DNA of 64,000 nucleotides from a virus, in IMG/VR virus record IMGVR_UViG_3300048588_000136, positions 25,358 through 89,357 of that record; one strand, given 5' to 3'. This document shows, one piece after another, positions 36,621 to 48,708 of this stretch (positions are counted from its first letter, which is position 1; the number at the start of each line of letters is the position of its first letter). Under the pieces are notes generated by a model that did not search any database, was not told where the DNA came from, and saw only the letters and a program-made list of their open reading frames with translations. The position numbers and the translations under genes were made by a program.

Positions 36621-37787
36621 TTACTTCGGCGGATGTAGCGGCATCACACAATGAATGTATCCATCAGCGCCGACCAGCCTAAACAGCCCCGGTCGAGTCG
36701 GCGTGGTCGTCTCCATGACAACCTGAGGCGTGTCCACTTGCGATAGGTAGTCAATTAAGTACTTGGCATTGTACAGAATTTCAACCGGCGGGCCATCAGC
36801 GGCGCATTCAATATCGCTAGCGTTGTCGCCCATTTCGGCACCGGTGGCGGCAAGGTGCAATTTTTGTTCAGTCGGATCGACGCTGAACGCTACGATGTTG
36901 GCGTTGTCACGCGCGAACAGCAGCGCTACGCGGACGGCCTTAAGCAATGCTGCTGTATCCACCGTGGTGCGGGTGTTGTAGCTTTTTGGCACCGTCGCCA
37001 TGTAATCGGGAAACCGAGCATCAATCAACTCGCTGACCAGTTCCACACGACTGATGATACCGTTGCCGGTTAGCACGAACATCACCTGATTACGTTGCGG
37101 CGTAATCAGGCATTGCACTGGCTCACCAGCAGCAGCATCGGCGCTGATACGTGCCAACTCGCCAAGCGATTTTGCCGGCACAATGACGGTAGTCTTCTCC
37201 GGGCCGCCTTCAATCGGTATCGTCCGCACACTGAGCCGATACCCGTCTGTGGCCGCCATCTTTACGCAGTCAGGTGATAGCGTGACTTCCACACCGGTTA
37301 ATGTCGGACGGTTCTCATCGGCGCTTGCTGCGAATGTCGTCTGGTCAATCATCTTGCGCATCTGGGTAACCGGCAACATCGCCTGCGTGATGGTGTCGCC
37401 GGACGTCTCGATTATCTGTTCTGCTGGCACAATCAGCGGAAACTCAAACGCATCAATCCCCTTCATGTTCGCTTCAAAGCGTGCGCAACTGAGGTGCAGC
37501 GTCTGTGTGCGCACTGTCAGTTCCATGTCGATACGATCCGGTGGCAGGCTGTTGACGAACTCGGACAGCAGGCGGGCCGACACTGTAATCGCCCCTCCAT
37601 CTTCCACCTTGGCGCCAATCCAACAGTTGATGGCGATCTCGCGATTGGTGGCCGCCAAACGTAACTGGTTGCCCTTAGCCTCTAGCAGAATGTTGCTCAG
37701 CACGGGCATTGTCGAGCGACTGGACACGGCGCGCACGGTGATTGACAGCGCTTTGGCTAACGTTTGCTGTGTGGTTGATACTCGCAT
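36621..37787 (-). CDS. dnaN: DNA polymerase sliding clamp (beta subunit), copy 1
   Basis: A 388-residue protein with three clamp domains. The start MRVSTTQQTLAKALSITVRA, the segment SRSTMPVLSNILLEAKGNQL, ENRPTLTGVEV near residue 165 and the C-terminal VMETTTPTRPGLFRLVGADG are typical DnaN landmarks. It would form the ring that tethers DNA polymerase and other enzymes to DNA. A second full-length clamp is at 41609-42781. It is the last gene of its cassette and ends at a terminator. Confidence 0.93.
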   Translation of the reverse strand: MRVSTTQQTLAKALSITVRAVSSRSTMPVLSNILLEAKGNQLRLAATNREIAINCWIGAKVEDGGAITVSARLLSEFVNSLPPDRIDMELTVRTQTLHLSCARFEANMKGIDAFEFPLIVPAEQIIETSGDTITQAMLPVTQMRKMIDQTTFAASADENRPTLTGVEVTLSPDCVKMAATDGYRLSVRTIPIEGGPEKTTVIVPAKSLGELARISADAAAGEPVQCLITPQRNQVMFVLTGNGIISRVELVSELIDARFPDYMATVPKSYNTRTTVDTAALLKAVRVALLFARDNANIVAFSVDPTEQKLHLAATGAEMGDNASDIECAADGPPVEILYNAKYLIDYLSQVDTPQVVMETTTPTRPGLFRLVGADGYIHCVMPLHPPK

Positions 37788-41608: not shown

Positions 41609-42781
41609 CTATTTCATCGGGTTCATCGGCATGATCACCATCAGATAATCGCTATCACCAACCGGCCTAATTGCGCCTGGTCGTGTCGGCTGCGTCGTCT
41701 CAATCGTGGCCTGGGCCGTAGGAACATGCGATAATGCATCTGACAACAGCCGGCCATCGAATGCAATGTTGATTTCAGCGCCTTCTACGCTGCATTCAAT
41801 TTCGCTGGTGTTGTCACCCATTTCCGCACTGGTGGCAGAGACTTGAAACACGCCTCGGTTGGGCGAATCATCGGGGCGCAATGCACAGCGGATAATGTTA
41901 GCGTTGTCACGAGCAAACAGCATGGCAACCCTGACCGCTTTCAGCAAAGCAGCGGCATCAACTGTGCAACGGGTGTTCTGGCTTTTGGGGATAGTGGCAC
42001 GGTAATCGGGAAACCGAGCGTCAATGAGTTCTGAAATAATGTCTACCCGTTTCCATTCCTTCGCACTGGTAGCGCTGAATAGCACTTGATTACGGTTGGC
42101 GCTGACAATAGCGGTGATCTCGCCGGTTGCATCGCTACAGATGCGTGACACCTCGGACAGGTTGCGACCGGGGATGATGATAGTCGCCTTTTCGCCAGCG
42201 CTTGCCTCTACGCTGCGCATACTGAGCCGGTAGCCATCGGTGGCGGCCATCGTCAATCTGCCATCCTCAAAGGTCGTTTCTACGCCGGTTAGCGTTGGCC
42301 GGTTTTCATCGGCAGAAGCGGCAAAGGTTACGCTATCAATCAGCGATGCCAACGCATTTGACGCCACGGTGTACACGTCGCCTGTAACCGTTGGCGCATC
42401 GGTTGGTTCCGGCTGATAGGTGGGAATCAGCGGAAACTCGAAAGCGTTAATACCTTTGATGTTGGCTGAATGCTTGGCACAGGTCAGGCGCAACGTCTCT
42501 GTAAGCTGTTGCAATGCCATAGTGACACGTTCATTGGGCAGGCTGTTGATAAATTCGCTTAACAGACGAGCGGGGATTGTGGTAGAGCCGGATTCCTCCA
42601 CATCGGCGGCAATCCAACAGTTAATACCAATTTCGCGGTTGGTTGCGGCGAGTCGTAAGCCGTCTCCGGTGGCATCCAGTAGAACATTGCCCAACACCGG
42701 CATTGTTGTTCGACTGGATACGGCACGGTTGACGATAGACAGCGCTTTGGCTAACGCTGATTGGTTAACGGATAATCGCAT
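41609..42781 (-). CDS. dnaN: DNA polymerase sliding clamp (beta subunit), copy 2
   Basis: A 390-residue DnaN starting at ATG 42781 (AGGGAG upstream). It parallels copy 1 throughout: MRLSVNQSALAKALSIVNRA, SRTTMPVLGNVLLDATGDGL, ENRPTLTGVETTF and IETTQPTRPGAIRPVGDSDY. The two share about half their residues by eye, so they are old paralogs rather than a recent copy. Two clamps in one phage is unusual; mixed or partner-specific rings are possible. Confidence 0.93.
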   Translation of the reverse strand: MRLSVNQSALAKALSIVNRAVSSRTTMPVLGNVLLDATGDGLRLAATNREIGINCWIAADVEESGSTTIPARLLSEFINSLPNERVTMALQQLTETLRLTCAKHSANIKGINAFEFPLIPTYQPEPTDAPTVTGDVYTVASNALASLIDSVTFAASADENRPTLTGVETTFEDGRLTMAATDGYRLSMRSVEASAGEKATIIIPGRNLSEVSRICSDATGEITAIVSANRNQVLFSATSAKEWKRVDIISELIDARFPDYRATIPKSQNTRCTVDAAALLKAVRVAMLFARDNANIIRCALRPDDSPNRGVFQVSATSAEMGDNTSEIECSVEGAEINIAFDGRLLSDALSHVPTAQATIETTQPTRPGAIRPVGDSDYLMVIMPMNPMK

Positions 42782-43073
42782 ATTCACTCCCTATGGTTTT
42801 TCGAGTTGGTTTCAGTCCCGTCTCGATAATGGCATCGTTCCACGTCAAAAAAATGGTGTCGCCACAGTTTGACCAACCTGGCAACAATTTACAACGATGG
42901 CTGCTGTATTCCTGCTGTGTCGGCGTGCGACCTATCATGTTGGCGACACGCCGAATATCGCCAAGATAGGCACAGCGCATGAGTTGGCAATCTTGGCGGT
43001 GAACAATGAGCGCTTGCCGATCTCTAGCCACATATCCACACATACAGCGGTGTTCTGGATTACTCATCCTCAT
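42765..43073 (-). CDS. Zinc-finger plus HNH-associated-repeat protein (cassette B)
   Basis: A paralog of 38521-38943 without its coiled start: RCMCGYVARDRQALIVHRQD (zinc site), then IRRVANMIGRTPTQQEY and FLTWNDAIIETGLKP. Its end overlaps the dnaN copy 2 start by 17 bases. Confidence 0.6.
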   Translation of the reverse strand: MRMSNPEHRCMCGYVARDRQALIVHRQDCQLMRCAYLGDIRRVANMIGRTPTQQEYSSHRCKLLPGWSNCGDTIFLTWNDAIIETGLKPTRKTIGSEYAIIR

Positions 43074-45427: not shown

Positions 45428-46204
45428 CTATCTCCCTATCTCACGGCTCAACGTATGCCATGCTGTTGCAACCACAACAGGCACCTGTCCATTGCCAAGG
45501 GCTTTAATCCTGTGGCCCCTATCGGTATCCCCATCAGCCATTCGTAAAATATCGTCATGACCGGCTCGCCATACCTCACTAGATATTCGTATGGAATCCG
45601 TCGTTGCACGACGTGGCCTGATGCTCTGCGTTCCTTGTTTACTGCTCTTTGCGCCTCGATGAGATTGTTGAATCCCACTTTGTGATCTGCCGCTGTCGGG
45701 GTAGGCCAGTATGAACAGTCTTTCCCGTGTGTGTGGCGCTCCAGTGGCGCAAGCCGAAAACACACCCCAGATTGCATCCATCCCCATTTCGGCCAAGTCT
45801 CCAAGTATTCGCTCGAAATACCCGCTATTAATGAGGGCTGGAACGTTTTCCAACAGCGCATACTGTGGTCGTATGATGCGCAAACATTCAGCGGTCGCTG
45901 GCCACATGTTTCGGGGATCGTCGGCTCTGAGCATGGGGCCGGCGGCACTGAATGGCTGGCAGGGGAAACCGCCTGTAACCACGTCGATAAATCCTCGGCA
46001 CTGTTCAGCGGCACCGGACTGGATGAAGTGACGAATGTCGCCAAAGATGGGCGCTCGGCTAAACAAGCCGTCGTCAATTCTTGCCCGGAGAACTCGCTGA
46101 CAATATTTATTCCATTCGACATAACCTAAGCACTCCCAGCCTAACAGATAATGTGTTGCCCATACGCCTAGTCCAGCGCCGGCGAATAGTGCAAGCTCTT
46201 TCAT
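45428..46204 (-). CDS. DNA cytosine-5 methyltransferase
   Basis: A 258-residue enzyme with all key motifs: I (LFAGAGLGVW, residue 6), IV with the catalytic cysteine (GGFPCQPFSAAG, about 79), VI (LLENVPAL, about 117), VIII (PHTRERLFILAY) and X (IKALGNGQVPVVVA near the end). The target domain is short, so a simple recognition site is likely. It overlaps the Pol X-like gene by four bases. No restriction enzyme is adjacent, consistent with self-protection. Confidence 0.92.
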   Translation of the reverse strand: MKELALFAGAGLGVWATHYLLGWECLGYVEWNKYCQRVLRARIDDGLFSRAPIFGDIRHFIQSGAAEQCRGFIDVVTGGFPCQPFSAAGPMLRADDPRNMWPATAECLRIIRPQYALLENVPALINSGYFERILGDLAEMGMDAIWGVFSACATGAPHTRERLFILAYPDSGRSQSGIQQSHRGAKSSKQGTQSIRPRRATTDSIRISSEVWRAGHDDILRMADGDTDRGHRIKALGNGQVPVVVATAWHTLSREIGR

Positions 46205-46803
46205 CCGAACAACCCTACCTGAACCGGAACCGGCTCAATCTCAACGGCCGGCGCTTCACCGAAACGGGGGTCGTAATAGTCGCTGCGCTGTGGCGGTAAT
46301 ACGTAATCCATGCCCCACAGCGCGAAGATGTCCTGCTCTTCTGGCGTCTCTATCAGCTTCGCGCCTGCCCAGACACGGGCGTCGCGCACCTGATAGCCGT
46401 CTGGCATAAAGCCATGCTGTGACCGCTTCGTCACCATCTTGCGGCTGAACTCTGCCGTGCCGGTTCTGAGCAGCATATTGACACCCCACGTTGCTGGGTC
46501 AGGCTGCAAGAACAGATCAACCTGCACATACTCATCTAGCACCTTGACCGGAAAGCGAAAGCTGCGCAGCTTATTGCCCCAGCGCTTGGGCGTCGTGTGC
46601 AGGATGGCGCCGATACGTACCAGAAGATCAAGCTCTTCGTACAGTTCCACGGTGGGAATGCAAACCAACTCAATGTCGCCTATTTCCGGCTTGCAGCGAC
46701 GAATGCTACCAGCAATTTCGATACGCCTAGCGTGAGTCTGCAAGCTACTAATAAGCTGGTCGGCGACGGTTCTGGCGACGGCCAGCGGGATTTTTGTTTT
46801 CAT
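46201..46803 (-). CDS. DNA polymerase X-like nucleotidyltransferase with clamp-binding-like tail
   Basis: The 200-residue protein has the Pol beta palm signature GSIRR (residues 32-36) and GDIEL (42-46), with a third acidic residue in YVQVDLFL (about 92-99). It lacks the 8-kDa and fingers domains of full Pol X, so it is a minimal enzyme. It ends VQVGLFG, close to the bacterial clamp-binding consensus QLSLF. A gap-filling or end-tailing role tied to a phage clamp is inferred. Confidence 0.75.
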   Translation of the reverse strand: MKTKIPLAVARTVADQLISSLQTHARRIEIAGSIRRCKPEIGDIELVCIPTVELYEELDLLVRIGAILHTTPKRWGNKLRSFRFPVKVLDEYVQVDLFLQPDPATWGVNMLLRTGTAEFSRKMVTKRSQHGFMPDGYQVRDARVWAGAKLIETPEEQDIFALWGMDYVLPPQRSDYYDPRFGEAPAVEIEPVPVQVGLFG

Positions 46804-47882
46804 GCGGCTACCTCCAAATCAAACAGTGACAGATTCGTATAGGTCGCCGGCTTGAGGCAATGCGGACTAAACCAAATACGCTCCTTGGTAGCATTGTCAC
46901 GACCGCGACCATTGCCCTGCATACCGTAACCGCCGTGTGCTTTCCAGGCGAGACAGTCCCAGCCGGGAAGATCGTACTCGCCATCGTAGCCGCAAAGGGC
47001 TATCCTCAACAGCGGATTATCACCGTTGGCCTTGCACCAATCTGCGACCGCATGGCCTACTTCCAGACAATCTACCTCGTACAAATCGGCCTCGCGTCCA
47101 GCCTTGGCGGTGTAAGGCGGGTCAAGGAAAACAGCGGTCAGTCCATTTTTGAATGTCGGTGTCGGCCCACAGACGCGCGACCAATCACCGCAGCAGACAC
47201 GCACGCGGGTCAGGCGTTCGGATAGCGCTTGCATCCAGGCGTATAGCCCCTGTTCGCCTGCGCCGGCGTTGCCACCGGCGGCAAGCGCAACTTTCGCCTG
47301 ATTCACTCCCTGTCCCTGGTGCATGAGGTGGACACGCTGCCGGTTGACGCCCTGCCCGCTGTTGCCCAGGTGGACAAGCTGCCGGTTGACGCCCTGCCCG
47401 CTGTTGCCCAGGTGGACAAGCTGCCACCCGTCCGGTGTTTCTACCTGTTGCCACGGTCCTCTCCCGCTGCACCAGCCGCCGCCAATCCAACACGCCGCAC
47501 CCCAGCACCACCATCCCGCGATTTTCGGATCGTAGTAATCGGGATCGCCTTCCAACTTGGCGGCTAGCCCGTCCGCCTGACGTACCAGCCAACCGTGGCG
47601 GGCGTGGAGGTCGTTTTCGTTCACCGGCCAGTCGGCGTAGTGCGCTACGGCGTCGGGGTCAGCCTGAACCGCACGCCAGAAGTTCGCAATGAACCCGCTG
47701 GCGTCGTTCACGGTTTCCAGCATGGTTTTATCAGTCCGCCAATGCGGTCGGTTGAGTAGCACGGCGCCGCTGCCAAAAAACGGCTCGACATAGTTGGGGG
47801 TGTCACCAAGTCGTGACCACACGGCGTCGGCTATTTCGGATTTTCCGCCAAAATAAGGAAATGGTGCTTTCACGGCTGACAT
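46800..47882 (-). CDS. DNA adenine methyltransferase, D12 class
   Basis: A 360-residue Dam-type enzyme: PFPYFGGKSEIAD (N-terminus), VEPFFGSGAVLL (motif I, about 32) and AVFLDPPYTAK (motif IV, about 249). Residues about 152-195 hold a 14-residue tandem repeat (QLVHLGNSGQGVNR twice, then a degenerate copy), in the area that normally recognises DNA. It ends with NLSLFDLEVAA, similar to clamp-binding motifs. ATGA-type overlaps join it to the Pol X-like gene. Confidence 0.9.
   Translation of the reverse strand: MSAVKAPFPYFGGKSEIADAVWSRLGDTPNYVEPFFGSGAVLLNRPHWRTDKTMLETVNDASGFIANFWRAVQADPDAVAHYADWPVNENDLHARHGWLVRQADGLAAKLEGDPDYYDPKIAGWWCWGAACWIGGGWCSGRGPWQQVETPDGWQLVHLGNSGQGVNRQLVHLGNSGQGVNRQRVHLMHQGQGVNQAKVALAAGGNAGAGEQGLYAWMQALSERLTRVRVCCGDWSRVCGPTPTFKNGLTAVFLDPPYTAKAGREADLYEVDCLEVGHAVADWCKANGDNPLLRIALCGYDGEYDLPGWDCLAWKAHGGYGMQGNGRGRDNATKERIWFSPHCLKPATYTNLSLFDLEVAA
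47295..47420. repeat. 42-bp tandem repeat inside the adenine methyltransferase gene
   Basis: Units 47337-47378 and 47379-47420 are identical; 47295-47336 is a degenerate third copy. They encode 14-residue repeats and could change number by slippage without shifting the frame. Confidence 0.9.
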
Positions 47883-47895
47883 CCTTTAGTTGTCT

Positions 47896-48708
47896 CTAGA
47901 ACAAAAATGCTTGACCGGGGTTCAACTTTTCCGCTAGAGTTCTAGAAAACCCGTTTGCTTTGATCTCACTGCGCACCGCTTCATTATGCGCGATCCAAGC
48001 GCTAGCCTGTGCGAAAAAGTCCTTTTTGATTTCAAACCCATAGCCACGGCGCCCCAGGTTGTACGCCGCAATCAGCGTTGAACCGCTACCGGCGCAGGGA
48101 TCAATCACCACGTCGCCAGGATCGGTGAAGATGCTAATCAGCCGCTCCAATAAGGCGACAGGCTTTTGTGTCGGATGAATCTTCTGATAGAGATCATCTT
48201 TGTCATCTTCCCAATCCATGACATTGAAGATCATCTTGCCGCCGTTGTTGAACTTTGGTAGCTTTTCCCGGTAGAGCAACAGCGCGTATTCAGCGTTACC
48301 GACAACCCGCATGTTAGCTTTTAACACCTGAGCGCTGTATTTCTTGCGAAATACCAAATTAATGTAATTGTTGATACCATATTGCCGTGCAAGCTCAATC
48401 AAACTGAACTGCTGTTCAAAGCTGCAAAACACAATCATGCATGGAGCCTTGCCGCGCTCTTTCGGCTCCTTAACCATCAACTTCGAGCAGAAATGCATAA
48501 ACTCAGCGGGCTTGAAATTTTCGTCAGTGTCAAAGAATGACTTGCCGGCTAACTCACTTTCGCCGTTGGCGTTGTCACCGTCCACATACCATTGCGGATT
48601 GGATGCATAAGCTTTATCGGAGAGATTGTAGGGGATATCTGCTATGACTAATTGCGCGCGCGGTATGTTGTAACTTTTGAAGTTTTGGAAATGATCATTG
48701 AATAGCAT
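47896..48708 (-). CDS. DNA methyltransferase, N4/N6 beta-class type
   Basis: A 270-residue enzyme with the permuted order: catalytic IADIPYNLS near residue 22 (DIPY for DPPY), then HPTQKPVALLERLI (about 188) and motif I VIDPCAGSGSTLIAA (about 212). It modifies adenine N6 or cytosine N4. The last residues, GQAFLF, resemble a clamp-binding motif. It overlaps the small coiled-coil gene upstream. Confidence 0.88.
   Translation of the reverse strand: MLFNDHFQNFKSYNIPRAQLVIADIPYNLSDKAYASNPQWYVDGDNANGESELAGKSFFDTDENFKPAEFMHFCSKLMVKEPKERGKAPCMIVFCSFEQQFSLIELARQYGINNYINLVFRKKYSAQVLKANMRVVGNAEYALLLYREKLPKFNNGGKMIFNVMDWEDDKDDLYQKIHPTQKPVALLERLISIFTDPGDVVIDPCAGSGSTLIAAYNLGRRGYGFEIKKDFFAQASAWIAHNEAVRSEIKANGFSRTLAEKLNPGQAFLF

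Follow-up and report, generated by a model that had tools for sequence, protein, structure and literature searches.

A stretch of viral DNA of 64,000 nucleotides (the window hereafter; positions 25358-89357, G000:C1, of the 89,357-base viral record IMGVR_UViG_3300048588_000136) contains three consecutive genes for DNA enzymes whose products all end in, or close to, a Leu-Phe pair, and this raises the question of whether these tails attach the enzymes to a sliding clamp. The proteins concerned are a beta-class N6-adenine-type DNA methyltransferase (MTase), a D12 (Dam-like) adenine MTase and a short Pol X-like protein. The original prediction gave their C-termini as GQAFLF, NLSLFDLEVAA and QVGLFG, respectively, and the translations agree exactly. 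We consider it likely that the tails are sliding-clamp-binding motifs carried on extensions outside the catalytic domain, which would dock the MTases, and probably the Pol X-like protein, at a phage or host clamp. Judged from the sequences, the assignment as clamp-binding motifs is strongly supported for the two MTases, and the Pol X-like tail is probably a clamp hook as well.

The beta-class MTase (270 aa; 47896..48708, minus strand; PF01555, E=6e-28; phrog_67 DNA methyltransferase, E=4e-48) has the translated C-terminus NPGQAFLF, in which the clamp-binding-like motif QAFLF (residues 266-270; 47899..47913, minus strand) forms the exact end of the protein. The D12 MTase (360 aa; 46800..47882, minus strand; PF02086, E=6e-9; phrog_56 DNA methyltransferase; a weak match to TIGR00571 dam fell below the cut-off) ends in YTNLSLFDLEVAA, which contains NLSLFDLEVAA; NLSLF occupies residues 350-354 (46821..46835, minus strand) and six residues come after it. 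The Pol X-like protein (palm/thumb, 200 aa; 46201..46803, minus strand; PF14791, E=4e-7) ends in PVPVQVGLFG, its motif stopping one residue short of the end. The tail peptides of the three proteins are thus LAEKLNPGQAFLF, TYTNLSLFDLEVAA and EPVPVQVGLFG. Three consecutive genes with such tails among about 120 have an expectation of about 1e-4 (hand arithmetic). A second beta-class MTase of the same virus, encoded to the left of the window (L250:2286-3224, plus strand) after a 589-aa C5 MTase (L250:1-1770), has the tail NPGQAFLFQ.

The bacterial clamp motif is Q-aliphatic-x-[L/M]-[F/L]; it is anchored by LF, and delta binds through AMSLF (PMC11139829). Positions 4-5 are LF in all three tails, and position 1 is Gln in QAFLF and QVGLF and Asn in NLSLF. 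The original prediction compared the three ends with the bacterial motif QL(S/D)LF or QxxLF at a free tail; the D12 end differs from it in having Asn at position 1 and six residues after the motif. According to a 2024 review, exchange of Gln for Asn at position 1 of the consensus peptide has only modest effects (PMC11139829). At position 2, the Leu of the D12 tail and the Val of the Pol X tail fit an aliphatic residue, the Ala of the beta-class tail is a weak fit, and Pro is common in the homologs; the clamp motif of MutL, QPLLI, has Pro at position 2 (PMC11139829).

We read the C-termini of 53 D12 and 80 beta-class viral homologs (the D12 counts are on 45) and compared them with the other open reading frames (ORFs) of the same loci (n=2395), all ORFs being called mechanically. 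LF was found within the last 10 residues of 66/80 beta-class (82%) and 21/45 D12 (47%) proteins, compared with 83/2395 of the other ORFs (3.5%). The fuller QxxLF was found in the same stretch in 19% of the beta-class and 22% of the D12 homologs and in 0.75% of the other ORFs; [QN]xxLF was present there in 0.9% of the other ORFs of related loci, and interior 10-residue windows contained QxxLF at 0.06%. Across 113 distinct LF-anchored tails, the one place with an excess of Gln was the first residue of the pentapeptide (L-3), where it occurs in 43 (about 10-fold, p=4.6e-32), and p exceeded 0.1 for Gln at every other LF-anchored position; these p-values are indicative only, as the compared sequences are related. 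By group, Gln occupies position 1 in 12/47 viral beta-class, 22/47 genomic beta-class and 9/19 D12 tails, and position 3 is mostly Ser, Thr or Asn. When residues were shuffled within the tails, QxxLF appeared in 0.5%, versus 18%, 32% and 23% observed. Because Gln is enriched only at L-3 in each family and the shuffles give 0.5%, we conclude that two unrelated MTase families, beta-class and D12, converge on the bacterial clamp motif.

One alternative explanation is chance or shared ancestry, by which hydrophobic ends were inherited without function. The homologs are related, so that the counts are not independent, and the calling of the ORFs was mechanical. It can be seen from an alignment of beta-class sequences (n=48), however, that Leu is kept at position 269 in 44/48 rows and Phe or Trp at position 270 in 42/48, while the linker before them has diverged, the majority residue at most positions of 241-265 being found in fewer than half of the 48 rows. 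At alignment position 266, Gln is present in 13 of the 14 rows that have a residue there, and in two homologs (L063 and L080) the linker helix is gone and the LF end is retained. Together with the convergence of independent families, the 0.5% of the shuffled tails, and the lack of a tail in the E. coli enzymes and the plasmid MTase described below, this leaves chance or ancestry very improbable, and we regard it as already disfavoured.

Tails of this type were also seen on further MTases. A QxxLF tail was present on 8/58 of the remaining N-MTase-like ORFs of the loci and on 25/3875 of all the others (Fisher p=1.4e-8). Twenty tail-positive ORFs were scanned with Pfam, and 10 of them matched DNA MTase families, namely N6_N4 (five), C5 (four, one of them just under the cut-off) and N6_Mtase (one). 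Some of the phage and prophage MTases among the tail-positive ORFs carry a perfect QLSLF. The chromosomal E. coli enzymes Dam, YhdJ and Dcm, analysed as negative controls, had no such tail, and a PRK13699-like MTase of a Citrobacter plasmid had no LF tail; a clamp-like tail is therefore not a general property of MTases. We also considered the Y-family polymerases of the host genomes as an in-host yardstick and set them aside. In most of them the very C-terminus is free of a motif or has a hexameric one (QLSFEF), and they are therefore of no use as a standard for the pentamer.

The position of the tails relative to the folded domains was also assessed. In the AlphaFold model of the D12 MTase, residues 347-352 and 355-360 have a predicted local distance difference test score (pLDDT) below 50, as expected if the model is describing a free motif. 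For the beta-class MTase, the solved relatives M1.HpyAVI, CcrM, M.BceJIV and MboIIA align by sequence only to about residue 239-250, and since they stop there the tail is an addition to the catalytic fold. The D12 MTase additionally contains near-perfect tandem repeats (RQLVHLGNSGQGVN type) at residues ~155-205, within a low-confidence insert, and similar repeats are present in homologs.

Clamps to which such tails might bind are encoded close by. As the original prediction had proposed, the window contains two phage clamps, DnaN-type clamp 1 (36621..37787, minus strand) and DnaN-type clamp 2 (41609..42787, minus strand), each with all three DnaN Pfam domains. Clamp 2 lies 2.6 kb and clamp 1 lies 7.6 kb beyond the C5 MTase gene, which belongs to the operon of the tailed genes; from the three tailed genes the clamps are 3.4-10 kb away, on the same strand. 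Using the list of pocket residues of E. coli beta (PMC11139829; E. coli numbering), we found that clamp 1 retains R152, L155, T172, G174, R176, L177, P242, N320, Y323, M362 and P363, and that clamp 2 retains R152, L155, T172, G174, R176, L177, P242, V360, M362, P363 and M364. At subsite I, clamp 2 is identical to the E. coli protein at 9/12 residues, plus Pro363 and Met364, and clamp 1 at 8/12. The two clamps, although encoded by one virus, are only 55% identical to each other.

Clamps and tails also occur together elsewhere. A clamp ORF of viral record G034 (L137:667-1860) shares 4 bases with the start of a D12 MTase ORF (L137:1857-3020), whose tail is VVQGQLFGDSE. Among isolated phages that encode a clamp, Rhizobium phage RHph_TM3_3_14B has an MTase ending SPQLSLFGDAA, Salinibacter phage M1EM-1 has one ending STPSLFS, and Sinorhizobium phage AP-16-3 has one with PASLF near its end. 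Absence of the tails where clamps co-occur, which had been named in advance as a result that would speak against the idea, was thus not what these four records gave, although there is one exception, considered below. Phage M1EM-1 also encodes a hypothetical protein (L291:23760-24419) that ends NGQLRLPLGAT, similar to a hexameric clamp motif.

The third tail was characterised in the same way. The PF14791 thumb of the Pol X-like protein scores over the cut-off and GSIRR and VDLF motifs are visible in the alignment; by these marks it has a palm/thumb nucleotidyltransferase fold and is a predicted polymerase. Most of its 25 viral or prophage homologs have no more than a few residues after the thumb. 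The window protein continues for 27 residues, in a Pro/Glu-containing extension (residues 174-200, linker plus QVGLFG; 46204..46284, minus strand, with QVGLF at 46207-46221). A search of the phage collection returned no Pol X homologs at 1e-3, and a C-terminal QxxLF was private to the window protein when viral contigs were searched as well. The tail, seen on one sequence, would fit a linear motif that was acquired in this lineage. Many of the homologs (L003, L259, L262, L272 and others) have, behind the second palm strand, a variable internal loop with [DG]LF, which in L003 reads QTDLFG; the loop of the window protein is short at that place and lacks [DG]LF. The idea that the motif had been relocated from this internal loop to the C-terminus was not retained, as Gln at position 1 is found only in L003, and we note it as a lead only.

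Several observations weigh against docking at a clamp. Peptide data indicate that Ala, the second residue of QAFLF, is a suboptimal residue at that place (PMC11139829). Among the beta-class homologs, the most populous subclade has the end xP[TIV]LF, which has no Gln and is a weaker match, and Firmicutes homologs are often without LF. None of the 25 viral or prophage Pol X homologs has a C-terminal motif, so that this tail, present in 1/26 sequences, is not conserved; as a private extension absent from the homologs, it makes the weakest case among the three tails. Arthrobacter phage Tiff81, the exception referred to above, has an MTase close to a clamp gene without a tail. A DnaN match was found in only 1/50 of the homolog-bearing viral records, many of which are fragments. 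Given this sparse co-occurrence, a phage-borne clamp is not required for an LF tail, and the partner in most of the related phages would be the host clamp. The proposal that the tails tether the enzymes to the phage's own clamps was therefore too narrow, while the reading of the MTase tails as clamp motifs held up on the QxxLF signature, the conservation, the position beyond the fold and the clamp pocket.

The last of these observations is that the beta-class tail (residues 261-270) has a mean pLDDT of 81 in the AlphaFold model, so that it may lie folded against the rest of the MTase and not be free. Intramolecular packing of this tail is the main rival explanation: the LF tails would be part of the MTase's own structure, lying on the catalytic domain or a dimer interface, and their likeness to clamp motifs would reflect convergence on hydrophobic ends. 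That LF is the exact C-terminus in many homologs, after a fairly regular helix-turn, and that many tails are without Gln would agree with such packing. It would, however, leave unexplained why two unrelated families should both have Gln precisely three residues before the Leu, and the tail is found on C5 and N6_Mtase families too. The D12 tail is of low confidence, the distance of LF from the C-terminus varies from 0 to 13 residues, and, as described above, LF is retained where the linker is lost and the alignment with the solved relatives stops short of the tail. We consider packing within the MTase unlikely, and prefer clamp binding.

Bacterial beta-clamp binders (Pol II, Pol IV, Pol III alpha, UmuC, MutS, MutL, Hda and delta) have the same Q-x-x-L-F, often at the C-terminus, and the pocket residues they use are shared with the phage clamps. 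The known beta-clamp partners are polymerases and repair, initiation and loader proteins, whereas the bearers here are DNA MTases; the 2024 review of the beta-clamp does not contain the words 'methyltransferase' or 'methylase' (PMC11139829). We found no description of clamp-binding motifs on prokaryotic or phage DNA MTases in the literature searched, outside which lie most subscription journals, so that this absence is not proof. What would be new is the bearer: the motif itself is familiar, but it is not known from this class of enzymes. The eukaryotic DNMT1-PCNA pair resembles it in that a DNA MTase is brought to new DNA by a clamp-binding motif (reviewed in PMC9690074), but there the activity is C5 maintenance methylation, whereas here the enzymes are phage adenine-type MTases with a bacterial motif and probably an anti-restriction role. 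Beta-clamp-binding transposases, reported for many IS families (PMC4549789), are likewise mobile elements that exploit the host clamp, in their case for transposition and not for DNA modification.

Next to DNMT1-PCNA, the nearest precedents are the plasmid single-stranded DNA MTases M.EcoGIX and M.BceJIII. These are beta-class enzymes with an action linked to replication, and their authors proposed a host protein intermediary, for example through the Pol I-sliding clamp interaction (PMC7736820). What has been demonstrated there, by contrast, is an association with DNA polymerase I. We considered a link between the window MTase and M.EcoGIX-type plasmid MTases and dropped it, the PRK13699-like Citrobacter relative, possibly of that family, being without an LF tail. 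M.EcoGIX does illustrate that MTases can join replication proteins by other routes (PMC7736820), and the window tails might similarly bind another partner with a preference resembling that of the clamp, such as a replisome, repair or protease-adaptor protein; the lack of Gln in the xPTLF class could be read in this way. QxxLF with Ser, Thr or Asn at position 3 is, however, a known clamp signature, several MTases have a perfect QLSLF, one clamp gene overlaps an MTase gene, and the tails are not acidic, unlike that of SSB. A partner other than the clamp therefore appears quite improbable to us.

Close phage homologs of the window beta-class MTase are annotated DpnA or DpnIIB, and the protein is 74% identical to dpnA of Campylobacter phages. 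The likeness to DpnA (M2.DpnII) rests on the annotation of these homologs; the pneumococcal DpnA methylates single-stranded DNA (PMC3573125). By analogy, the window enzyme may also be specific for single strands.

The genes discussed here are ordered on the minus strand, in the direction of transcription, as beta-class MTase, D12 MTase, Pol X-like protein, C5 MTase and the two DnaN clamps. The stop and start codons of the D12/Pol X and Pol X/C5 pairs overlap as ATGA, and for this reason the D12, Pol X and C5 genes look translationally coupled. The C5 MTase (45428..46204, minus strand; PF00145, E=5e-29) is without an LF tail when its own sequence is read. Its frame overlaps almost fully with a second one (45448-46122, minus strand) that matches phrog_1008 'DNA methyltransferase' (E=1e-16), and the same pair of frames recurs in L123 (13376-14434 and 13569-14408; 31% and 28% identity). 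The locus may therefore hold a nested dual-coding gene, with both frames possibly conserved at the protein level.

Docking itself, like the choice of clamp, a coupling to replication and an anti-restriction role, is what we infer from the tails. The two MTases, and probably the Pol X-like repair polymerase with them, would sit with their tails in the peptide pocket of a clamp, which could be either or both of the phage clamps or that of the host. Methylation of fresh phage DNA, and the filling of gaps, would then take place at the fork or behind it, ahead of any attack by restriction enzymes. For most related phages and prophages no clamp gene of their own was detected, and there the same kind of tail would bring in host DnaN. 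We lean slightly towards the wider proposal that at least four phage orphan MTase families (D12, beta-class DpnA-like, C5 and N6_Mtase) have repeatedly acquired clamp tails and that clamp-hitched self-methylation is a general anti-restriction strategy; for the DpnA-like enzymes, the clamp would put a single-strand methylase at the fork. Coupling of methylation to replication through a clamp is known in eukaryotes (DNMT1-PCNA), and the literature searched gave no prokaryotic or phage equivalent. If true, such coupling would explain how a phage methylates its genome fast enough to outrun restriction, and the dozens of distinct tails seen here would represent a large set of new DnaN clients.

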